NCBI GenBank assembly: GCA_017540175.1
Contig: JAFYBN010000061.1
Coordinates: 1-56,913, forward strand
DNA: 56,913 nt
Direction: 5' to 3'
Source of the DNA: Clostridia bacterium
GTDB lineage: Bacteria; Bacillota; Clostridia; Oscillospirales; CAG-272
Under the pieces are notes generated by a model. That model had not been told where the DNA came from and searched no databases. It was given only the letters and a program-made list of their open reading frames with translations. Numbering within the stretch: the first letter of the stretch is position 1; every line of letters starts with the position of its first letter. This document shows positions 31,384-56,913 of the stretch, piece after piece. The position numbers and the translations under genes were made by a program.

Positions 31384-33327
31384 ATGATATCGATCAGCAC
31401 CAATAACCTTGCCTACCGCATCGGCACGCGGGAGATCCTCGGCGGCGTCACGTTTTCGCTGGAGGACGGCGACCGTCTCGCCGTCGTCGGCGTGAACGGG
31501 AGCGGGAAATCCACCCTGCTCAAGATGATTTCCGGGGAATACGAGCCGGACGAAGGCGAGGTCATGATCGCCAAAAACAAAACCCTCGGGATCCTCCATC
31601 AGGACGACGCGTTCAGCCTGGATTCGCCGGATGCGGGGGGCGATCTCTCCGTATTCGGACAGATGCTCGCCACCCAGCCGGAGCTCGTCCGCGCGGAAGC
31701 GCGGCTTGCCGAACTGCAGCGTCTGCTCGACGAGGCGATATCGGACGAAGAGCTCCGCCGTCTGTCCGCGGAATACGACGCCCTGAACACCCGGTTCATC
31801 CGGGACGGGGGACTGTATTACAAATCGCGGTGCCGGAGCATCCTCACGAATCTCGGCTTCGGGGAGGAGGTACACGCGCGCCCCGTGACCGAGCTCAGCG
31901 GCGGTCAGCGCACGCGGCTCGCCCTCGCGCGGCTTTTGTTCCGGGAGCCGGACATCCTCATTCTCGACGAGCCGACGAACCATCTCGACCTCGACACCAT
32001 GCTCTGGCTCGAGGGGCATCTTTCCGCCTATCCGAAGAGCAAGACGGTCATTCTCGTGTCCCACGACCGCCTTTTCCTCGACCGCGTGACGAACAAGACC
32101 CTCGACATCGAGCACTGCCGCGCAAAGCTCTACAAGGCAAAATACTCCGTTTACGCGGAGATGAAGAAGAAGGACCGCGCCGAGGCGGAAAAGAAATACA
32201 TGCTCCAGCAGCGGGAGATCGCGCGGCAGGAGGCGTACATCGAACAGCAGCGGCGCTGGGGACGCGAGCGCAACATCATCGCCGCGGAGTCGCGGGAAAA
32301 GGCGCTCGCCCGCATGGAAAAGCTCGAAAAGCCGAAGGCGCTGCCGAAATCCATCCGCTTCAAGCTGAATTCCTCCGGGGAATCGGGGAACGAGGTCGCG
32401 GAGGCGAAAAAGCTGACGATGGGCTTCGGCTCGCACATCCTGTTCCGGAATCTCTCCTTTCTCGTGAAGAAGCGGGAGCGTGTCTTCCTCTACGGCCCGA
32501 ACGGATGCGGGAAATCGACGCTCATCAAGCTCCTGCTCGGGCAGCTCGAACCGCTCGGCGGGGAGATCGAATTCGGCTACAACGTCACGGTGGGCTATTA
32601 CGATCAGGAGAATCAGAACCTGACCGAGGAAAACACCGTGCTCGACGAGCTGTGGAACGCGTATCCCCACCTCACGCAGACCGAGATCCGCGACACCCTC
32701 GCGCTTTTTCTCTTCCGCGGGGACGACATCGAAAAGGAGGTCCGGGTCCTGTCCGGCGGAGAACGGGCGCGCCTCACCTTCGCGAAGCTCATTCTCTCGA
32801 AGATGAACCTGCTCATCCTCGACGAGCCGACGAACCACCTCGACATCGAATCGCGGGAGGCGCTCGAGAACGCGCTCGAGGAATTCGACGGGACCATCAT
32901 TGCGGTGTCGCACGACCGCTATTTCATCCGGCGGCTGGCGACGCGCTTCATCGATCTCGGCAGCGGCGGCGCGGATTTCCGCGGAAGCTGGGACGAATAC
33001 ATGGCGCGCCGCGCCGCGAAGGCCGGTGAGGAAAAGCCCGACGCCCGCGAACCGGAAAAGACCGCGAAGGAGGAATACCTCGACCGCAAAAAAAGCGACG
33101 CCGACCGCAGAAAGCTCGAACGCCGCCGGGCGCAGGTCTCAAAGGAGATCGGGGAGCTCGAAAAGAAGCTCGCCGAAATCGACGATCTGCTGTTCGGGGA
33201 GGCGGCCACCGACTACGTCCGCGCGGCTGAGCTGACGGACGAAAAGACCGTCGCCGAGGATCGCCTCATGCAGCTGTACGAAGAAGACGAAACCCTTGCC
33301 GCCGAGGGGATCACGATCACGGCATGA
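31384..33327 (+). CDS. ABC-F family ATPase
   Basis: A cytoplasmic, two-domain ATPase without membrane segments; family members act on the ribosome as translation factors or antibiotic-protection factors. 647 residues. First ATPase: Walker A GVNGSGKSTLL (about 39-49), signature LSGGQRTRLALARLL, Walker B ILILDEPTNHLDL. A Lys/Arg/Glu-rich linker follows (KKDRAEAEKKY region, about 255-330). Second ATPase: GPNGCGKSTLIK, LSGGERARLTFAKL, LLILDEPTNHLDI. The C-terminal coiled coil (from about 555) resembles Uup/EttA-group extensions. The ribosome binding site before ATG 31384 is weak. It ends at a strong bidirectional terminator. Confidence 0.93.
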   Translation: MISISTNNLAYRIGTREILGGVTFSLEDGDRLAVVGVNGSGKSTLLKMISGEYEPDEGEVMIAKNKTLGILHQDDAFSLDSPDAGGDLSVFGQMLATQPELVRAEARLAELQRLLDEAISDEELRRLSAEYDALNTRFIRDGGLYYKSRCRSILTNLGFGEEVHARPVTELSGGQRTRLALARLLFREPDILILDEPTNHLDLDTMLWLEGHLSAYPKSKTVILVSHDRLFLDRVTNKTLDIEHCRAKLYKAKYSVYAEMKKKDRAEAEKKYMLQQREIARQEAYIEQQRRWGRERNIIAAESREKALARMEKLEKPKALPKSIRFKLNSSGESGNEVAEAKKLTMGFGSHILFRNLSFLVKKRERVFLYGPNGCGKSTLIKLLLGQLEPLGGEIEFGYNVTVGYYDQENQNLTEENTVLDELWNAYPHLTQTEIRDTLALFLFRGDDIEKEVRVLSGGERARLTFAKLILSKMNLLILDEPTNHLDIESREALENALEEFDGTIIAVSHDRYFIRRLATRFIDLGSGGADFRGSWDEYMARRAAKAGEEKPDAREPEKTAKEEYLDRKKSDADRRKLERRRAQVSKEIGELEKKLAEIDDLLFGEAATDYVRAAELTDEKTVAEDRLMQLYEEDETLAAEGITITA

Positions 33328-47939: not shown

Positions 47940-48130
47940 GGGGGCGAGACGGGCAAGCCAAAGAAGAAAGGGACGAACGGCGAGCCGCCGTCCGGCGATT
48001 TCCCCGCGCGGCGGCATGGAGAAAACGAGCCCCGTTTTCGCCCCTCCGTCCCGCGCCCGATTCTTTCGAAAATCAAAATAATCCGGTTCGTTTTTTCGCG
48101 GACGCGATTTTTCAAAACGCGCTTTTTATC

Positions 48131-48159
48131 TTGACAAGAAAAACCTGCCATGCTATAAT
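48131..48159 (+). promoter_or_regulatory. consensus sigma-A promoter, distal
   Basis: TTGACA (48131-48136), 17 bases, TATAAT (48154-48159): a perfect match 405 bases before the first kinase. Nothing obvious is encoded directly downstream, so it gives the kinase a long leader or makes a small RNA. Confidence 0.8.
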
Positions 48160-48448
48160 TATGAACAGATTATTACTTGTCGGGCATGCCGGACAAATAC
48201 CGCAAAGTCCGGCGCACAAACCGTCCCGAAGCCTGCCGGGCGCGTCGGCTCCGCCCTGCCGGGCACATGCCGCCGCGGCGGGAAACGATTGACAAAACCG
48301 GGGGGCGCGCCCGTGGTATCATAGAGCGACGGACGCGGATGACACACCCCGCGCAAGCGGGAGAACCCCTGCCGCGCGGCGGCGAAAAACGTCCCGCGCA
48401 AACCGCGGTCCGGCCCCTGCGGATTTCGCGTTTTTCGCGGCAAAACGG

Positions 48449-48478
48449 TTGACAGGTTCCCGCATCCGGTGATATAAT
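48449..48478 (+). promoter_or_regulatory. sigma-A promoter, proximal to the first receptor kinase
   Basis: TTGACA (48449-48454), 18 bases, TATAAT (48473-48478), about 85 bases before ATG 48564. A diverged copy of this region precedes the second kinase. Confidence 0.85.
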
Positions 48479-48563
48479 GAAATAATCGGGCGCCTGACGT
48501 CCGATTCGACCGGATACGTTTACATGACAGCATACGCATGATTGGTATATAGAGAGGTTTGAC

Positions 48564-51500
48564 ATGGATCACGAAAACGACCTGCTGAAATCCGTCTGGC
48601 CCGAGTGGCGGATCGTACGCCGGATCGGAAGGGGTTCCTTCGGATCGGTTTACGAGGTCGTCCGCGGCACGGGCGATCTCACCAGCCGCGCCGCCGTCAA
48701 GATCATCGAGATACCGTCCGATCCCGCCGCGGTCGACGCGCTGAGATCCGAAGGAATGGACGACGAGGGGACCCGCACCTATCTCGAGGGCGTCGTCCGC
48801 GATTTTGTGGGCGAGATCCGCGTTATGAACTCGCTCAAGGGCGCGCCGAACGTCGTCTCGATCGAGGATTACCGCCTCATCAAGCGGACCGACACGTTCG
48901 GCTGGTTCATTCTGATCCGCATGGAGCTGCTCACGCCGTTTACGAACGTCATGAGCAAGGGGCCCCTGAGCGAGGAGCAGGTGCTGACGCTGGGGCGGGA
49001 CATCTGTTCCGCGCTCACGGTCTGCGGGGAGCTGAACATCCTTCACCGGGACATCAAGCCGCAGAACGTATTTGTCGACCGCTTCGGTTCGTATAAGCTC
49101 GGGGACTTCGGCATCGCCCGCAAGATCGAGCAGACGGCGAGCGCCCTCTCGCACAAGGGAACGTATAATTACATGGCCCCGGAGGTCTCCCGTCAGGAGC
49201 CGTACGACAACCGCGCGGACATTTGCTCGCTGGGCGTGATGCTGTACCAGCTCATGAACGAGAACCGCCTGCCCTTTATTGAAAACGCGTCCCAGCTCAC
49301 GGATCCGAACGGACGGCTTCAGGCGCTGAGCCGGCGGCTGAGCGGCAATCCCATGCCGCCGCCGTGCCGGGCATCGAAGGAATTCGCGCGCATCATCCTG
49401 AGGGCGTGCGCCTTCCGCCCCGAGGACCGCTATCCCGACGCGAAAACGTTCAAGACCGATCTCGAGCGCCTGCTCTTCGCACGGTCCTCCGCCGCCGAAG
49501 CGCCGGGGACCGCGGCGATCCCCACCGCGAGGTCCGAAGCGGGTGCGAAGCCCGCTCCAGCAGCGAAGCCCGAAGCGGGAGTGATGTCCGCTCCCGACGC
49601 GAAATCCGCAACAGGGGCGAAGCCCGAAGCGGGTGCGAAGTCCGCTCCCGACGCGAAGCCCGAAACGGGGGCGAAACCGACTCCCGACGCGAAATCCGGA
49701 GCGGGAGCGAAGCCCGGAGCACCCTCTCAAGGGGAGGGCGAGAAAAAGAAACGCCGCGTCCCGGTCATCCTGATCGCCGCGCTCGCGCTTGTTCTTTGCG
49801 GCGCGATCGCCGCGGTTCTGTTCACGACCGTGTTCGCCGGAGTCGACGTTCCCGGACTCGTCGGGCAGACGAAAGAGGCCGCGATCGCCGCGCTGTCCGA
49901 AAAAGGTCTTGCCGCGGCGTCTCAGACGCGCTATGACGACGCGCCGGAGGGCACGGTCGTCGCACAGAGCCCCGAACAGGGTGCGAAGGTGAAAAAGAAC
50001 ACGGAGGTCGTGCTCACCGTCAGTCTCGGGCCGGACAGCGCGACGGGCATCACGGTCAGTACGCTGCCGTCCAAAACCTCCTATTTCATCGGCGAATCCC
50101 TCGATACCGCCGGGCTCACGCTGACCGAGCACCACAGAAGCGGCGGCGAGGAAGAGATCCGGGACGGCTTTCTGTGCGAACCCGAGGTGCTCGACCGCCA
50201 CGGCACGCAGAATGTCACCGTCACGTACGACGGCATGACCGCCGCATTCGAGGTGACCGTCGAACGGGTCGTCCTGACGGAGCTTCTGATCCGGGACCAG
50301 CCGGCAAAGACGAGCTATTTTGTCGGGGAATCCTTTGACAAAACGGGGCTCACGCTGTTTGCCGCCTACAGCGACGGATCGACGAAGGTGGTCGAATCCG
50401 GCTTCAGCTGTCCCGCGGAGTACTTCGGCGAGGCGGGGATGAAAACGATCACCGTTTCGTATGGCGGCATGAGCGTGGATCTGAACGTGAACGTCGAAGC
50501 GGTCACTCTCACGAAAATCGAGATCAAGAAAGAGCCGAACAAGACGGAATACTTTGCCGGCGAAACCCTGAACGATTCCGGGATCGCGCTGACCGCCTAT
50601 TATTCAGACGGCTCGTCCAAGACGGTTACAAAAGACATTCTCTGCTCCCCGACCGCGCTCGGGACCGCGGGCACAAAGGCGATCAAGGTCTCCTACGGCG
50701 GTCTTGAAACGAGCTTCAACGTAACCGTTCTGAAAGCCGCGCTGACGGGGATCGAGGTCGTCGCCGTGCCCGTGAAGACGGAGTATTTCGTCGGCGACCG
50801 GCTCGACGCCGAGGGGCTTGCCGTGACCGCCTCCTACACCGACGGATCAAGGAAAACCGTTACGGGCGACTGCGAGCTGACCGACACCTCCTTCGACACG
50901 CCGGGGGAGCGCACGGTAAGCGTCACGTATCAGGACAAGCACGCGTCCTTCTCCGTGACCGTAAAGAGCGTCGAGGTCCGGTCGATCCGGATCGCGTCGA
51001 AACCGCTCAAAACGGTCTACGACGCCGGAGACCGGCTCGCGGAAGACGGGCTCACGCTGCTCGTCACTTATTCGAACGACACGGTGAAAACGGTCTCGGA
51101 CGGCTTTTTCTGCAATCCGGACCGGTTCAATTACGCCGGGACGCATACCGTCAGCGTCAGCTACGGCGGCATAACTGAATCCTTCAGCGTCGAGGTTCTG
51201 GACAATCTGGGGCACACCCCCGGCAGCCCGAACCTTCTCTCCGGCACGGTGATCGGCAATATGCTCGGCTGGGGAGGCGATCCGGCCGCTGGCGCCGCGG
51301 CGGCGTTCGACGGCGACCCGAACACCTATTTCGATCCGCCCGAAAAGGGCGGCGACAACTGGTGCGGCATGGACTTCGGCAGGAAAGTGGTCCTTGAAAA
51401 GGTCGCCATCCTGTCCCGCGTGGATTGGAACGACCGCTTCGTCGGCGCGACCATCGACGGCTCGAACGACGGCAAAAACTGGACAACGCTCTGGCGGTCC

Positions 51501-52070
51501 TTCGACATGGGTGTGAATCCCCTCTACTACGTCGTGACCGAGTTTGAAAACAACACCGGCTATTCCATGTACCGTTATCACAACGAAGCCGAACACGGCG
51601 ACGTCGCGGAGATCGAATTCTACAGCGCGGACGCTTCGTCCGTGAATCCCCCTTCCGGCAGCACCGCGGCTCTCCTGAGAGGCACGGTGATCGGCAATAA
51701 GCTCGGATGGAGCGACGACCCGGCCGTAGGCGCCGCGGCGGCGTTCGACGGCGATCCGAGCACCTATTTCGATCCGCCCGACAAGGGCGGCGACAACTGG
51801 TGCGGCATGGACTTCGGCAGAAAAGTGGTTCTTGCGAAAGTCGCCATCCTGTCCCGCGCGGATTGGAACGACCGCTTCGTCGGCGCGACCATCGACGGCT
51901 CGAACGACGGCAAAAACTGGACGACGCTCTGGCAGTCTTCCGAAACAGGCACAAACCCCTTCTACTACGTCGTGACCGAGTTTCAGAACAACACCGGCTA
52001 TTCCATGTACCGTTATCACAACGAAACCGAACACGGCGACGTGGCCGATATCGAGTTTTACGGATATTAA
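48564..52070 (+). CDS. transmembrane Ser/Thr kinase with PASTA, Ig-like and two discoidin-like domains
   Basis: 1168 residues. Cytoplasmic kinase domain (about 15-300): glycine loop GRGSFGSVY (22-30), Lys46 in AAVK, HRDIKPQN with catalytic Asp163, DFG at 181, APE. A Lys/Ala/Pro/Glu-rich linker with AKPEAGAKSAPDAK-type repeats (about 325-390) leads to one membrane helix (VPVILIAALALVLCGAIAAV, about 398-424). Outside: one PASTA-like repeat (VPGLVGQTKEAAIAALSEKG, about 427-490), five Big_3-type Ig-like repeats of about 78 residues (about 494-885; recurring KTxYFVGExFDxxGLTL), then two F5/8 type C-like domains (about 890-1030 and 1036-1168). GAGAGG precedes ATG. A receptor kinase, inferred to sense an extracellular ligand, possibly glycan; ligand and substrates unknown. 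No PP2C phosphatase or division genes are adjacent, unlike PrkC. Confidence 0.9.
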   Translation: MDHENDLLKSVWPEWRIVRRIGRGSFGSVYEVVRGTGDLTSRAAVKIIEIPSDPAAVDALRSEGMDDEGTRTYLEGVVRDFVGEIRVMNSLKGAPNVVSIEDYRLIKRTDTFGWFILIRMELLTPFTNVMSKGPLSEEQVLTLGRDICSALTVCGELNILHRDIKPQNVFVDRFGSYKLGDFGIARKIEQTASALSHKGTYNYMAPEVSRQEPYDNRADICSLGVMLYQLMNENRLPFIENASQLTDPNGRLQALSRRLSGNPMPPPCRASKEFARIILRACAFRPEDRYPDAKTFKTDLERLLFARSSAAEAPGTAAIPTARSEAGAKPAPAAKPEAGVMSAPDAKSATGAKPEAGAKSAPDAKPETGAKPTPDAKSGAGAKPGAPSQGEGEKKKRRVPVILIAALALVLCGAIAAVLFTTVFAGVDVPGLVGQTKEAAIAALSEKGLAAASQTRYDDAPEGTVVAQSPEQGAKVKKNTEVVLTVSLGPDSATGITVSTLPSKTSYFIGESLDTAGLTLTEHHRSGGEEEIRDGFLCEPEVLDRHGTQNVTVTYDGMTAAFEVTVERVVLTELLIRDQPAKTSYFVGESFDKTGLTLFAAYSDGSTKVVESGFSCPAEYFGEAGMKTITVSYGGMSVDLNVNVEAVTLTKIEIKKEPNKTEYFAGETLNDSGIALTAYYSDGSSKTVTKDILCSPTALGTAGTKAIKVSYGGLETSFNVTVLKAALTGIEVVAVPVKTEYFVGDRLDAEGLAVTASYTDGSRKTVTGDCELTDTSFDTPGERTVSVTYQDKHASFSVTVKSVEVRSIRIASKPLKTVYDAGDRLAEDGLTLLVTYSNDTVKTVSDGFFCNPDRFNYAGTHTVSVSYGGITESFSVEVLDNLGHTPGSPNLLSGTVIGNMLGWGGDPAAGAAAAFDGDPNTYFDPPEKGGDNWCGMDFGRKVVLEKVAILSRVDWNDRFVGATIDGSNDGKNWTTLWRSFDMGVNPLYYVVTEFENNTGYSMYRYHNEAEHGDVAEIEFYSADASSVNPPSGSTAALLRGTVIGNKLGWSDDPAVGAAAAFDGDPSTYFDPPDKGGDNWCGMDFGRKVVLAKVAILSRADWNDRFVGATIDGSNDGKNWTTLWQSSETGTNPFYYVVTEFQNNTGYSMYRYHNETEHGDVADIEFYGY
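49530..49735 (+). repeat. imperfect tandem repeat in the first kinase's linker
   Basis: Units such as GCGAAGCCCGAAGCGGGTGC alternate with GCGAAGTCCGCTCCCGAC, giving the AKPEAGAKSAPD protein repeats between kinase and membrane helix. Confidence 0.75.
51243..52070 (+). repeat. 438-base tandem duplication encoding the discoidin-like domains
   Basis: The copy beginning GGCACGGTGATCGGCAATAT at 51243 recurs at 51681 with few differences over nearly the full domain, including long identical stretches such as GGCGACAACTGGTGCGGCAT. The offset is 438 bases (146 codons), so the frame is kept. Confidence 0.92.
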
Positions 52071-52332
52071 GCCGCCCGCAGAGTCTGCCCGGATCCCTCG
52101 GAGAACGGGAAAAAAGCCCGATCCCCGCAGGCGGCGGGATACGCCCGGCGGCAGGCAAAGCTCCGCCTCCCGTGTGTGACGGCACGGCACTCCGGCTGCC
52201 GTCGGATCACGCGCGTTTCTGTACCCAAAACGGCTGACACACACCCTTCTTCGGCGATATGACGGGAGCCGGGCACAGAGAGCCCGATGCTCCGGAAAAC
52301 AAACACATCCCTATACAGAAAGGTTCATTTTT
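52071..52332. other. 262-base region between the two receptor kinases
   Basis: No gene or T-run terminator. The right part is a diverged copy of the first kinase's proximal promoter region (see 52234-52263), so the pair was duplicated together with upstream sequence. The GC-rich left part has short inverted repeats only. Confidence 0.55.
52234..52263 (+). promoter_or_regulatory. diverged promoter copy before the second kinase
   Basis: CTGACA (52234-52239), 18 bases, TATGAC (52258-52263). It shares the flank AAAACGG before the -35 and CGGYGATAT around the -10 with the promoter at 48449-48478, but both boxes have decayed, so the second gene may rely on read-through. Confidence 0.45.
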
Positions 52333-55300
52333 ATGGACATCGAAAATGACCTGCTGAAATCCGTCTGGCCCGAGTGGCAGATCGTGCGCCAGCTCGGAAA
52401 GGGCTCCTACGGTACGGTGTACGAGATCGTCCGCACCGACGGGGGCTTCACCAGCAACGCGGCGGTCAAAATCATCACGATCCCGTCCGACCCGGCGGTA
52501 GTGGATACGATGAAATCGGAGGGGATGAACGAAACGGCGGCTCGGACCTATCTCGAGAGCATCGTCGACGATTTCGCGCGCGAAATCAGCGTGATGAACT
52601 CCCTCAAGGGCGCGCCGAACATCGTCTCCATCGAGGACTACCGTCTTCTCAAAAGGACGGACACGCTCGGCTGGTTCATTCTGATCCGCATGGAGCTGCT
52701 CACCCCCCTCTCTTCCTATATGTCGGAGCATCCCTTCAACGAAGAGGCTACCGTCAAGCTCGCGCGCGACATGTGTTCCGCGCTCGATTACTGCGCCAAG
52801 CTGGACATTCTCCACCGCGACGTCAAGCCTCAGAACGTTTTCGTCGACAAATTCGGAACGTTCAAGCTCGGCGACTTCGGCATCGCGCGCAAGATCGAGC
52901 AGACGGCGAACGGGCTTACCCACAGGGGCACCTACAATTACATGGCGCCCGAGGTCGCCCGACAGGAGCAGTATGACAACCGGGCGGACATCTATTCGCT
53001 GGGCATCATGCTCTATCAGTTCATGAACAGCAGCCATCTGCCCTTTCTGCAGACGGAGTCCCAGCTCACCGATCCGGAATCACGGATGCGGGCGCTCCAA
53101 ATGCGTTTCAGCGGCAAGCCCCTGCCGCCGCTGACGAACGCCTCCCCGGAGTTCGCGCGCATCATTCAGAAGGCGTGCGCCTTCAAGCCCGAAAACCGCT
53201 ACGATTCGGCGAAGGCGATGAAGAAAGACCTCGACAAGCTGGCGGCGGGTGTCGGAAACGAGGACGATAAGAAGAAGCCTCCGAAGAAAAAAGGGCTGCG
53301 CATCGCGCTCCTTGCCCTTCTTTTGCTCCTCGTCGTCGGCGGCGCCGCATTCGGCATCGCCTCCGTCATCACCAAGGCGAACGCAAAGATCACCGTGCCG
53401 AACGTCGTGGGCTATACGGAGGAAGACGCCGCCTCGGTTCTGAAACAGGCGGGACTGGTCAGCCTGCGGGAGATCGAATACTCCTCCGAGGCGGATCGCG
53501 GCAAGGTCCTGCGCCAAAGCGTCGCGTCCGATCAAAAGGTCAAAAAGAACACGAAGGTTGTGCTCACCGTCAGCGGCGGCGAAGATTTTATTGAGAGCAT
53601 CCGAATCGGGGTTAGTCCGACGAACACCGACTATGTCACCGGTGAACGGATCAACACCGCCGGGCTCACGCTGATCCCGATCTACGCGAGCGGCGAGGCA
53701 GGCGAGCCGATCTCGGACGGCTTCAGCGTTGAGCCCGAGACATTCGACGCGCCGGGCGAGCAAACCGTGACCGTGAGGTACGGCGATCTTTCCGCACAGT
53801 TCCCCGTGACCGTCACGGAGCGTCCGATCCCTCCTGCCCACGTAACGGGCATCGAAGTCAAGGACAATCCGACGACGAACGCGAAGTATCACGTACACGA
53901 CAAATTCGATCCGACGGGGCTGACGCTGACCGCCTTCATGAGCGACGGCACGGAGCAGACGGTCACATCCGGCTTCCGGTGCACGGTCGACGGGAGCAAT
54001 TCCGACGTATTCGGCAAGGCGGGTAAGATCGACGTCAAGGTCAGCTATACGGACCCGCGGTCGGACGAGACCTTCAGCACGAAGCTGAACGTGAAGGTCT
54101 CCGAAAAGCTCACGTCCGTCAAGGTCAAAACGATCGACGGCGCGAAGGTCGAATACCATCCCGGCGAAGCGTTTGACGGGACCGGATTCCTTTTGACCCT
54201 TCACTACGACGACGGTTCGGCAAGAGGCCGGAATGATGATATTTCGAAAGGATTTGCGTTCAAGTCCGAACCGTTCGACTCGGAGGGAGAGAAGACCGTC
54301 ACATTTACCTACACGGATCCGGACACGAAAGCCGAGTATACCGATGTGTTCACCGTGATGGTCAGGAACGCGGTGCCGACGGAGATCACGCTCAAAGACA
54401 AGCCGAAAACGACTGCCTATAAAGTCGGCGATAGATTCGACAAGACAGGGCTGACGCTGAATGTGACCTACGACGACGGACATACGGAAACGGTCACGAA
54501 CACAAGCGCATTTGCCTGCACGGTCGAAGGCACCGATTCCGATACGTTCACCAAGGCGGGCAGCTCCGTCAAAGTCACCGTAAAATACGGCGGTCTGACG
54601 ACGAAGGGACCGATCACGGTGAAGGTCTACCAGCTGACGGGGATCGAAGTCAAATCCGGACCGTCAAAGACGAATTATGTCGTCGGCGACGAGTTTGACC
54701 CGAAGGGGCTCAGACTGACCGCGGTCTATAAAGCGGGCAGTGAGGAAAACAGAGAAGATATCCCGGACGGGGATCTCAAGGATACGGACAAATTCAGCTG
54801 GACGATCAAGGGCAGCAGTACCGGCAAGTTCAACGCGACCGGCGACAATATCACCGTCACCCTCTCGTATCGGGACCAGACCGTAACGACACCCCGGACA
54901 AAGGATCTGCCCGTGAAAGTCAGCGCCGTGCTGAAGGAGATCAAGGTCAAATCCATGTCGAAGACGACGGAGTATTTCGTCGGCGATCAATTCGACAAGA
55001 CGGGGCTGACGCTGAATGTGACCTACGACAACGGCACGAAGAACGGAACGACGAAGGAGATCTCGTCGGGCTTCACCTGCAAGGCAGAGTCCTTCGGCAC
55101 TGCGGGAAATAAAAAGGTCACCGTCACATACAAGGAAGGCTCGGTCGAGAAAACGACCTCTTTCGACGTGACCGTGCTCAAGCTGACGAAGATCGAGGTG
55201 AAGAATCAGCCGAAGACGACGAAGTATTTCGTCGGCGACAAATTCGATCAGACCGGACTGACGCTGACCGCGACCTACACCGACGGCACGACGAACGGCA

Positions 55301-56709
55301 CGAAGAAGGAGATCGAGGTCACGACGGGCTTCATCTGCAAGCCCGAGTCGTTCAGCAAGGCGGGAGAGATAACGGTCACGGTCGAATACACGGACAAAAA
55401 CAAGACGACGACCGTGAAAACGTCCTTCCCCGTGACCGTGAAGGAAAGACCCGAGCTGACAGGGATCACGGTCAACGCCGGCAGCGTCAAAAAAGACTAT
55501 TTCTACGGCGAAGCCTTCAATCCGGCAAATCTTGTTGTGACCGCGAACTACAGCGACGGCGACGCGCGGCAGGTCACGAACTACGACTGGGAGCCCAAGA
55601 GCTTTTATACGAAGGGCAGCGTTCCGGTCACCGTCAGCTATACCGAAGGCACAAAGACCGTGAAAGCGAAGGAGCCGATCTATGTGAACGTCACGGCGCA
55701 GGTGACGGGGATCACAGCTCATACCGACAACGTGAAGCATGAGTATTTCGTCGGTCAGTTCTTCGATTCGACAGGTCTTGTCGTGACCGCGAATTACAGC
55801 GACGGGACTTCAACGCCCATCTACGACTACACCTGTACGGCCGAGTCCTTCGCCACACCGGGAAATAAGACCGTCACCGTTTCCTACTGGGGTCTGACCG
55901 ATACGTTCCCCGTGACTGTCAAAGAGATCTTGCCGACGAAGATCGAGCTCTATTCTCCGCCGAAAAAAACGGTTTACTTCCTCAACGAGCCCTTTGACAA
56001 GACAGGGCTGTCGCTGACCGTGACTTACAATAATAATACAGCGGAAACGATCTCGGACGGCTTCACGTGCACAGCCGAATCCTTTGCCACGCCGGGAAAT
56101 AAGACCGTCACCGTTCAATACAAAGGTCTGACCCTGAACCCGCCGCTTACAGTGACTGTCCAAAAGAAGGATCCCGTAGTAACCGGGGTCAAAGTCAGTC
56201 TCTCCGGCAACCCGCGGACGGAATACCTCGTCGGCGACAAATTCGATCCGACGGGATTCGCGCTGAAAAAGGTCTACGACGACGGAACGGAATCGGAACC
56301 GATGACGAGCGGCTTCAGCAACGACGCTCCCGCGAAGTTCACGCGCGAAGGATACGAAAAAATCACCTTCACGTACAAGGATCCGGGAACCGGGAAAGAG
56401 TTTAAAGACTCCTACAGCGTGTCGGTCGAGTACGGCAGGATCACGGACGCGTCAATCACGAGCAATCCCTATAATCAGAGCTATAGTTTAGGGGATTCTC
56501 TCGATCTGTACGGCATCGAGGTGACGGTGGTGTACGAGAACGGCTACACGGAGGAATGGGGTTCGAACCGTATAGAGCCCCTCGTCGACGAAAATCCCGA
56601 AAATGCCGAACAACTCAGACATTCCAGCTCAAGCGCGTCGATCTCGTTTGTTGTCAGCGACGGGAAAGGATTCAGCAAAGAACTCGTCTTCTACATCGAA
56701 GTGAATTGA
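52333..56709 (+). CDS. transmembrane Ser/Thr kinase with PASTA and twelve Ig-like repeats
   Basis: 1458 residues, paralogue of the preceding gene. Kinase domain (about 15-300): GKGSYGTVY (22-30), Lys46, HRDVKPQN with Asp163, DFG, MAPE; the first 300 residues are very alike in both proteins. A short Lys-rich linker replaces the long repeat linker, then one membrane helix (IALLALLLLLVVGGAAFGIA, about 325-345), one PASTA-like repeat (VPNVVGYTEEDAASVLKQAG, about 355-416), and twelve Big_3-type Ig-like repeats of 76-95 residues to the C terminus (420-1458), each with a KTxYFVGDxFDxTGLTL-type strand and a closing KVTVTY-type strand. No sortase signal and no discoidin domain. Likely a long stalk sensor; ligand unknown. 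Confidence 0.9.
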   Translation: MDIENDLLKSVWPEWQIVRQLGKGSYGTVYEIVRTDGGFTSNAAVKIITIPSDPAVVDTMKSEGMNETAARTYLESIVDDFAREISVMNSLKGAPNIVSIEDYRLLKRTDTLGWFILIRMELLTPLSSYMSEHPFNEEATVKLARDMCSALDYCAKLDILHRDVKPQNVFVDKFGTFKLGDFGIARKIEQTANGLTHRGTYNYMAPEVARQEQYDNRADIYSLGIMLYQFMNSSHLPFLQTESQLTDPESRMRALQMRFSGKPLPPLTNASPEFARIIQKACAFKPENRYDSAKAMKKDLDKLAAGVGNEDDKKKPPKKKGLRIALLALLLLLVVGGAAFGIASVITKANAKITVPNVVGYTEEDAASVLKQAGLVSLREIEYSSEADRGKVLRQSVASDQKVKKNTKVVLTVSGGEDFIESIRIGVSPTNTDYVTGERINTAGLTLIPIYASGEAGEPISDGFSVEPETFDAPGEQTVTVRYGDLSAQFPVTVTERPIPPAHVTGIEVKDNPTTNAKYHVHDKFDPTGLTLTAFMSDGTEQTVTSGFRCTVDGSNSDVFGKAGKIDVKVSYTDPRSDETFSTKLNVKVSEKLTSVKVKTIDGAKVEYHPGEAFDGTGFLLTLHYDDGSARGRNDDISKGFAFKSEPFDSEGEKTVTFTYTDPDTKAEYTDVFTVMVRNAVPTEITLKDKPKTTAYKVGDRFDKTGLTLNVTYDDGHTETVTNTSAFACTVEGTDSDTFTKAGSSVKVTVKYGGLTTKGPITVKVYQLTGIEVKSGPSKTNYVVGDEFDPKGLRLTAVYKAGSEENREDIPDGDLKDTDKFSWTIKGSSTGKFNATGDNITVTLSYRDQTVTTPRTKDLPVKVSAVLKEIKVKSMSKTTEYFVGDQFDKTGLTLNVTYDNGTKNGTTKEISSGFTCKAESFGTAGNKKVTVTYKEGSVEKTTSFDVTVLKLTKIEVKNQPKTTKYFVGDKFDQTGLTLTATYTDGTTNGTKKEIEVTTGFICKPESFSKAGEITVTVEYTDKNKTTTVKTSFPVTVKERPELTGITVNAGSVKKDYFYGEAFNPANLVVTANYSDGDARQVTNYDWEPKSFYTKGSVPVTVSYTEGTKTVKAKEPIYVNVTAQVTGITAHTDNVKHEYFVGQFFDSTGLVVTANYSDGTSTPIYDYTCTAESFATPGNKTVTVSYWGLTDTFPVTVKEILPTKIELYSPPKKTVYFLNEPFDKTGLSLTVTYNNNTAETISDGFTCTAESFATPGNKTVTVQYKGLTLNPPLTVTVQKKDPVVTGVKVSLSGNPRTEYLVGDKFDPTGFALKKVYDDGTESEPMTSGFSNDAPAKFTREGYEKITFTYKDPGTGKEFKDSYSVSVEYGRITDASITSNPYNQSYSLGDSLDLYGIEVTVVYENGYTEEWGSNRIEPLVDENPENAEQLRHSSSSASISFVVSDGKGFSKELVFYIEVN
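54900..56160 (+). repeat. DNA-level similarity among Ig-like repeat units
   Basis: Adjacent units match closely in DNA, for example the blocks at about 54960 and 55212 (252 bases apart) and at about 55810 and 56068 (258 apart, both containing CCGGGAAATAAGACCGTCAC). This points to recent unit duplication or conversion. Confidence 0.75.
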
Positions 56710-56913
56710 GGCTGCCGCGGCCTTCGGGTCCGCGTCTTCCCCGCCGGAAGCGTCAATCGGACGTGAAAGGGCCTGTCGCAAATAGTCCCAAAAGTTTTCG
56801 TCCACCTTTTTCAAAAGGTGGTGTGGGTGTTGCAGTTCGCTCTGCGAACTGCTGCAGCGCCCTGACCCGAGGTCCCGAGATTCGCGCGGAGCGCGAACTC
56901 TCCGACCTCGGAA
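56710..56913. other. hairpin-rich non-coding segment at the right edge
   Basis: Contains CCACCTTTT/AAAAGGTGG (about 56800-56821), GCAGTTCGC/GCGAACTGC (about 56834-56854), TTCGCGC/GCGCGAA (about 56882-56898), and an outer CCGAGGTC/GACCTCGG pair. The stretch before it (56710-56770) shows no T-run terminator for the kinase gene. It looks like a mosaic of palindromic repeat units cut by the window end. Confidence 0.6.

Follow-up and report, generated by a model that had tools for sequence, protein, structure and literature searches.

Two adjacent receptor Ser/Thr kinases of a Clostridia bacterium share a kinase end and differ in their Ig-like and CBM62-like extracellular arms

Why should a Clostridia bacterium carry, side by side, two genes for nearly the same kinase with very different extracellular arms? 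The genes are rightward-transcribed and lie near the end of contig JAFYBN010000061.1 (assembly GCA_017540175.1), which was analyzed as a single stretch of 56,913 nucleotides (the window). Gene 1 (48564..52070) codes for a receptor Ser/Thr kinase of 1168 amino acids (aa) (P0001) and gene 2 (52333..56709) for one of 1458 aa (P0002). A first-pass annotation, made from the sequence alone, saw in them a pair of paralogous receptors of different reach and binding specificity that feed one kinase pathway, in a form not known to have been described. Judged by domain content, both open reading frames (ORFs) are real genes, and all of the domains named in that annotation (Pkinase, PASTA, Big_3, and F5_F8_type_C) are supported by Pfam. 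The pair is not unique, and sequence comparisons place it in a wider kinase family in which the extracellular halves have been exchanged repeatedly.

The two proteins are built in the same order, with a kinase domain, a linker, a basic stretch, a single hydrophobic membrane helix with its basic flank toward the kinase, and a single PASTA repeat. In gene 1, the kinase domain occupies residues 16 to 290 (48609..49433), the helix residues 401 to 419 (49764..49820), and the PASTA repeat residues 427 to 487 (49842..50024); in gene 2, they are at residues 16 to 298 (52378..53226), 324 to 342 (53302..53358), and 353 to 414 (53389..53574), respectively, all on the + strand, as are the features below. 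The catalytic residues Lys-46 and Glu-84 and those of the HRD, DFG, and APE motifs are intact in both kinases, which share 68.2% identity over 305 aa; the PASTA repeats share 46%. Beyond the PASTA repeat, gene 1 codes for five Big_3 Ig-like repeats (residues 492 to 884, 50037..51215) and two F5/8C modules (residues 886 to 1026, 51219..51641, and residues 1028 to 1168, 51645..52067) that are 83% identical to each other, whereas gene 2 codes for Big_3 repeats only, twelve of them, extending to its C terminus (residues 419 to 1458, 53587..56706). Pfam E values are 1.4e-36 for Pkinase, 3.6e-14 for PASTA, 1.9e-46 for Big_3 (five stretches), and 1.8e-20 for F5_F8_type_C (two stretches) in gene 1, and 3.1e-42, 9.3e-15, and 6.2e-69 for Pkinase, PASTA, and Big_3 (eight stretches) in gene 2. 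The original repeat counts of 5 and 12 are recovered by a motif search and by a profile trained on the same repeats, and Pfam alone gives 5 and 8, such that four of the twelve repeats of gene 2 depend on the self-trained profile; the twelfth has the weakest score. Mean identity among the 17 repeats of both genes is 34%.

The genes are likely co-transcribed, as far as matches to consensus signals can tell. A promoter-like site, TTGACA-18-TATAAT (48449..48478, + strand), is located 85 bp 5' of gene 1 and is a consensus match only, at 12 of 12 positions; counting every grade of promoter-like site, positions 48000 to 52500 have five, and shuffled sequence has a mean of 0.8. In the 262-bp intergenic gap, neither a promoter-like site nor a + strand terminator-like site is listed.

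That the genes are paralogs is borne out by a tree of 143 kinases, in which they are sisters with a Shimodaira-Hasegawa-like approximate likelihood ratio test (SH-aLRT) support of 99. Relatives were collected by scanning GTDB contigs with two peptide patterns derived from the window kinases and keeping the best 80 of 147, which yielded 76 loci; most are on metagenome-assembled contigs, and ORFs were called by length. Judging by their titles, they are mostly from gut and rumen Clostridia, with one from Treponemataceae and one from Erysipelotrichaceae. Two of the 76 (L089 and L090) are from one metagenome-assembled genome and are identical in sequence (4 kb checked). Kinase fragments were dropped from this tree and from a second one, from which PrkC, L176, and L032 were also dropped. 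The closest neighbors of the window pair in the first tree are the kinases of another tandem pair from its own genome (C6) and a kinase from its genus (support 86, not starred). The window kinases are 44 to 55% identical to their best family relatives and 34% identical to the PrkC-type kinase of their own genome, which is encoded at a separate locus (C16) with two PASTA repeats over the cutoff and an adjoining PP2C phosphatase gene, as the first-pass distinction between the pair and canonical PASTA kinases would have it.

Evidence from the same genome and its relatives rules out the pair as an isolated oddity and leaves the claim to a form without precedent unsupported. The C6 pair (L031:8015-14049) has BspA-type LRR (LRR_5) ectodomains on kinases that are 90% identical, two or more adjacent family kinases are present in 22 of 101 loci (the window and C6 included), and PASTA and Ig-like repeats are combined at L143 (Big_2) and at L168 (Big_3, with PASTA below the cutoff), both on other kinase branches. 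No publication describing the family, its architecture, or its ectodomains was found in the open-licence literature searched. Common inheritance of PASTA and Big_3 together with the kinase was considered and is doubted, as L166 and L168 share Big_3 and their kinases branch elsewhere.

Across the sampled family, the ectodomains are exchanged while the kinases are kept. For 25 adjacent pairs (the window's included), median identity is 71% between kinases and 25% between ectodomains, compared with a median of 21% and a 95th percentile of 27% for random ectodomains of different loci. The window ectodomains, at 36% identity against 68% for their kinases, are above this control because both arms are built of Big_3 repeats; ectodomains of some other pairs are up to 57% identical. 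The post-kinase segments listed number 124; after 7 short ones were set aside, the other 117 match 73 Pfam families at an E value of 1e-4. Many of these families are TPR or LRR models that overlap, and others include NPCBM, DUF6273, Sel1, and SH3_3. Locus L150 has five kinases, three of which carry CBM26, RCC1, and a chitobiase C-terminal-like domain, with no match on the other two, and L096 has TPR on one kinase and a beta-lactamase-like domain on the other. The latter domain (L096:13310-14527; PF13354, E value 1.6e-15) is accompanied by a List_Bact repeat, and we take it to be reminiscent of a beta-lactam sensor. A family kinase at L139:10898-12088 has FMN_bind and F5/8C-type domains after the helix and is a possible redox sensor. 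Zinc-ribbon matches are located N-terminal of the kinase domain at L212:5922-8933 and L213:3114-10096; none are listed for the window kinases.

The modules at the end of the gene 1 arm give the clearest indication of what such a receptor could sense. They had been called discoidin-like, and the F5_F8_type_C assignment stands in Pfam, although the closest relative is more specifically CBM62. An alignment of 11 modules (the two of gene 1 and those of nine other loci in the same genome) matches the CBM62 of Clostridium thermocellum Xyl5A over the whole module in a profile search (PDB 2yb7, E value 2.2e-19; 5g56, 3.9e-18; the next, 3cqo, 2.9e-4). The fold predicted for the second module (mean predicted local distance difference test score, 82.8) has as its best PDB matches 2yfu and 2yg0, which represent the same CBM62 (E values of 4.6e-11 and 9.1e-11; the next, 1.4e-7), with 29 to 30% identity in the fold alignment. 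The similarity to CBM62 thus extends to both profile and fold, but the gene 1 modules are mounted on a kinase receptor, whereas Xyl5A is an arabinoxylanase, whose CBM62 is linked with D-galactose in xylan side chains (PMC5063996). By this resemblance, the gene 1 tip most likely binds galactose-type residues of plant or host glycans. Modules similar to the Big_3 and F5/8C modules of the pair are also present in other proteins of the genome; four such proteins with the F5/8C module were scanned, and Laminin_G_3 was found in one of them and CBM9 in another. A 1106-aa protein at L037:3005-6325 (C42), not matched as a kinase, contains about a dozen Big_3 repeats and is a possible source of such repeats.

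What the kinases may act on is best seen in the neighboring genes of their relatives. Among the 76 GTDB loci, a PP2C gene is present in 44, a gene for a double-FHA ABC protein in 20, and type VII secretion system (T7SS) genes, meaning relatives of any of EssC, WXG100, or DUF4176, in 15; FHA-ABC and T7SS genes are never together (0 of 76), and 28 loci have none of the three. One of the 20 FHA-ABC genes is truncated (L110), and another is 5.1 kb from the kinase (L138). Two FHA domains, ABC_tran, and ABC2_membrane were found in both FHA-ABC examples scanned with Pfam (L089 and L213), and all three EssC examples scanned score over the curated cutoff, with FHA-type matches near their N termini. The type of partner follows the kinase tree, with three changes between FHA-ABC and T7SS for 34 loci, compared with a mean of 11.3 and a minimum of 6 in 300 shuffles. 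A PP2C gene within 200 bp and on the same strand as a family kinase is found at 38 of the 76 loci, and directly 5' of the kinase at 31. The absence of PP2C from the window pair was put forward as distinctive, and this holds only in part, since lacking an adjacent PP2C gene is common in the family without being the rule.

Two loci from the window's own taxonomic family illustrate the arrangement. At L212, the genes for PP2C, the kinase, and FHA-ABC have overlaps of a few nucleotides, and at L213, a single strand carries genes for PP2C, two kinases, a protein of 368 aa that starts like a lipoprotein, a third kinase, and FHA-ABC. The post-kinase parts of the three L213 kinases are all different (no Pfam match, YARHG with TPR, and DUF6273). 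The proposal that several receptors feed one pathway is therefore supported in relatives, where three kinases are placed between one PP2C and one FHA-ABC gene; for the window pair, we infer it. Nine stretches were fetched around other relatives and C6, and among these, L214 (a second kinase locus in the genome of L213), L215, L216, L217, L218, and L219 have a kinase without PP2C or FHA-ABC, so the association with these partners is frequent and not universal. An uncharacterized protein of about 430 aa is also encoded near family kinases (L217:9709-11079, L218:5214-6575, L219:1840-3135, L120:11582-12904, L094:16765-18054, and others), starting 2 bp after the kinase gene in L166 and L168, 28 bp after it in L120 and L141, and farther away elsewhere. 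The L094 copy has no Pfam match and the L217 copy no NCBIfam match; a distant match is near another kinase in the window genome (C95), and there is no relative among the window ORFs.

The surroundings of the window pair are different. None of the partner genes (PP2C within 200 bp, FHA-ABC, or T7SS) adjoins it, and the contig ends 204 bp 3' of gene 2, inside a repeat. This interspersed repeat of about 145 bp (56769-56913) has 41 genome matches listed, itself included, of which many are partial and several are at contig ends; visual inspection shows an inverted repeat within it, a possible terminator. In the search for partner relatives, the only match among the window ORFs is an ABC ATPase at 31384-33327. 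The first-pass statement that no PP2C gene accompanies the pair is correct for the whole contig, the genome's PP2C loci being C16, C112, and C115 only, and division genes are likewise absent beside the pair, as judged by eye from the ORFs of 44 to 57 kb. The genome has nine Pkinase loci, and C112 and C115 each have PP2C, a kinase, and FHA domains, with C112 (L035:3559-5972) forming a separate cluster of PP2C, a kinase with FHA, and FHA proteins. A double-FHA ABC query matches ABC portions only in this genome, and its four FHA domains are all at C112 and C115.

Taken as a whole, the locus is probably a duplicated receptor-kinase pair with variable sensing ends, of which the gene 1 arm would be glycan sensing, and with cytoplasmic targets in common. 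Genes 1 and 2 would have arisen by duplication, in this lineage, of a receptor Ser/Thr kinase of a type found in Clostridia. A conserved signaling end would consist of the kinase, the basic stretch next to the membrane, and the single helix, and a variable sensing end of the membrane-proximal PASTA repeat and an Ig-like stalk. Stalks of 5 and 12 repeats may carry their tips to different distances from the membrane, with two CBM62-like modules at the tip of gene 1 and an Ig-like tip only in gene 2. Ligand binding could then promote dimerization and trans-autophosphorylation, and both kinases would phosphorylate shared cytoplasmic targets. In the relatives, these targets are likely to be FHA-containing secretion proteins, either the double-FHA ABC transporter or EssC, reset by PP2C, and the output in much of the family is most likely secretion. 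In the window genome, a phosphatase and an FHA partner may act in trans, from genes such as those at C112 and C115, or be encoded beyond the contig end.

Several observations weigh against this explanation. Conserved pairing in related genomes, which the first-pass annotation raised, is not seen: among 25 genomes of the genus, including its own, the pair is present in its own only (19 of the other 24 are <90% complete); two further genomes have kinases of 44% identity, and one more has broken pieces. Within the taxonomic family, 17 of 295 genomes (its own included) have a match at an E value of 1e-40 or better. When the query was the segment of gene 2 that spans kinase, PASTA, and Big_3, the order had 6 matching genomes among 394 at 1e-100 and the class had 1 among 391 (its own counted in both); outside its own genome, the matches cover only the kinase part. 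The 76-locus sample is biased, having been drawn from one scan with two patterns of the window kinases and trimmed to the best of its hits, and the first tree leaves the separation of the family from PrkC unproven, as the C16 kinase falls inside it on a long, unsure branch. PP2C is missing from 32 of the 76 loci, 13 of which are flanked by 1.5 kb or more on each side. The window ORFs include no relative of PP2C, FHA, EssC, WXG100, or DUF4176, and no double-FHA ABC protein was found in the window genome, for which no whole-genome search for T7SS genes was made. The case for co-transcription consists of a promoter match and of a missing + strand terminator match in the gap.

A more ambitious proposal, which we put forward tentatively as possible, is that the family is a receptor-diversification system of gut Clostridia. 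In this proposal, a kinase and helix would be duplicated in tandem and fitted with ectodomains that keep changing (Ig, CBM62-like, CBM26, LRR, RCC1, FMN-binding, beta-lactamase-like, and others), all copies in a locus would report to one FHA-controlled export machine, either a double-FHA ABC transporter or the EssC of a T7SS, and the window pair would be an isolated offshoot of the system, carrying the longest arm sampled. If so, outside cues would decide when the cell secretes.

A different possibility, which we regard as unlikely, is that the kinases are PrkC-like envelope sensors in which PASTA senses peptidoglycan or its precursors, the Ig-like and CBM-like modules span or anchor in the wall, and the kinases report on its state. 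The single PASTA repeat directly after each helix would suit this role, PASTA repeats of Bacillus subtilis PrkC bind muropeptides (PMC6213207), and the best-scoring NCBIfam model for both proteins is that of the PASTA kinases PknB and Stk1 (NF033483). However, the scores of 183.8 and 180.6 bits are far under the cutoff of 450, and a PASTA kinase with a PP2C gene is already present in the genome at C16. PASTA is also rare in the set, as a self-made PASTA profile matches only 2 of 153 other kinase ORFs, those of L143 and of the long-branch kinase L176 (three repeats), with L168 under the Pfam cutoff.

The length of the arms raises the somewhat more doubtful prospect of adhesins that carry a kinase, attaching to mucus or plant fiber and reporting contact, by mechanical force or occupancy, and not a soluble ligand. 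The 1116-residue arm of gene 2 is longer than those of all 109 complete relatives, the 749-residue arm of gene 1 is exceeded by one, and the presence of Big_3 and F5/8C modules like theirs in further proteins of the genome, including the two with Laminin_G_3 or CBM9, would also fit. Against this, neither protein matches a Pfam wall-anchor family, and many relatives have short, LRR, TPR, or DUF6273 ectodomains that do not by themselves suggest adhesion. An anti-phage or conflict kinase is highly improbable: the PADLOC models mad6 (E values of 3.7e-52 and 1.9e-58) and PD-T4-6 match the kinase domain, but the mad6 matches are limited to that domain, the scores with NCBIfam MAD6 (NF047741; 105.8 and 121.7 bits) are far from the cutoff of 460, and the commonest neighbor clusters are PP2C, FHA-ABC, T7SS, and the uncharacterized protein, with no defence-library scan of neighbors made.

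To our knowledge, for most bacterial receptor kinases the extracellular ligand is not known. Because recognizable sugar-binding modules are present here (CBM62-like in the window, and CBM26 and NPCBM in relatives), one can propose, and test, both the ligand and the output of a duplicated receptor pair of the kind we favor. The combination of the same kinase, an exchanged ectodomain, and a recurring secretion partner would let gut bacteria tune secretion to their surroundings, and the family amounts to a natural set of chimeric receptors for learning how such kinases signal.

Among known systems, the window proteins share with PrkC, PknB, StkP, and Stk1 an N-terminal cytoplasmic Hanks-type kinase, one helix, and extracellular PASTA, but differ in having one PASTA repeat instead of several, long Big_3 arms, CBM62-like tips in gene 1, and no adjacent PP2C gene. 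CD2148 of Clostridioides difficile is likewise a membrane Ser/Thr kinase that a Clostridia genome encodes in addition to PrkC, although it is monocistronic and lacks PASTA domains (PMC9674922), and it is set beside the window kinases by description only.

The genes pknF and Rv1747 are neighbors in Mycobacterium tuberculosis. PknF phosphorylates Rv1747, a double-FHA ABC transporter, according to a reference title and a table entry in PMC6213207, so kinase control of an FHA-bearing transporter is a known mechanism. Relatives of the window kinases adjoin a double-FHA ABC transporter, which is likened to Rv1747 by its description and not by sequence, whereas the window pair has no such neighbor. 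The bifidobacteria, which are of a different bacterial phylum from the window organism, offer a further parallel. In the passages of PMC8430577 consulted, tandem kinase copies are not mentioned for the bifidobacterial PFNA clusters, whose core partners also differ (an FN3 protein, AAA ATPase, DUF58, and transglutaminase), and some of these clusters also hold a phosphatase gene (prpC) and an fha gene. Their kinase PKB2 is, like those of the window, a receptor Ser/Thr kinase of gut bacteria with an extracellular region that varies strongly between species (PMC8430577).

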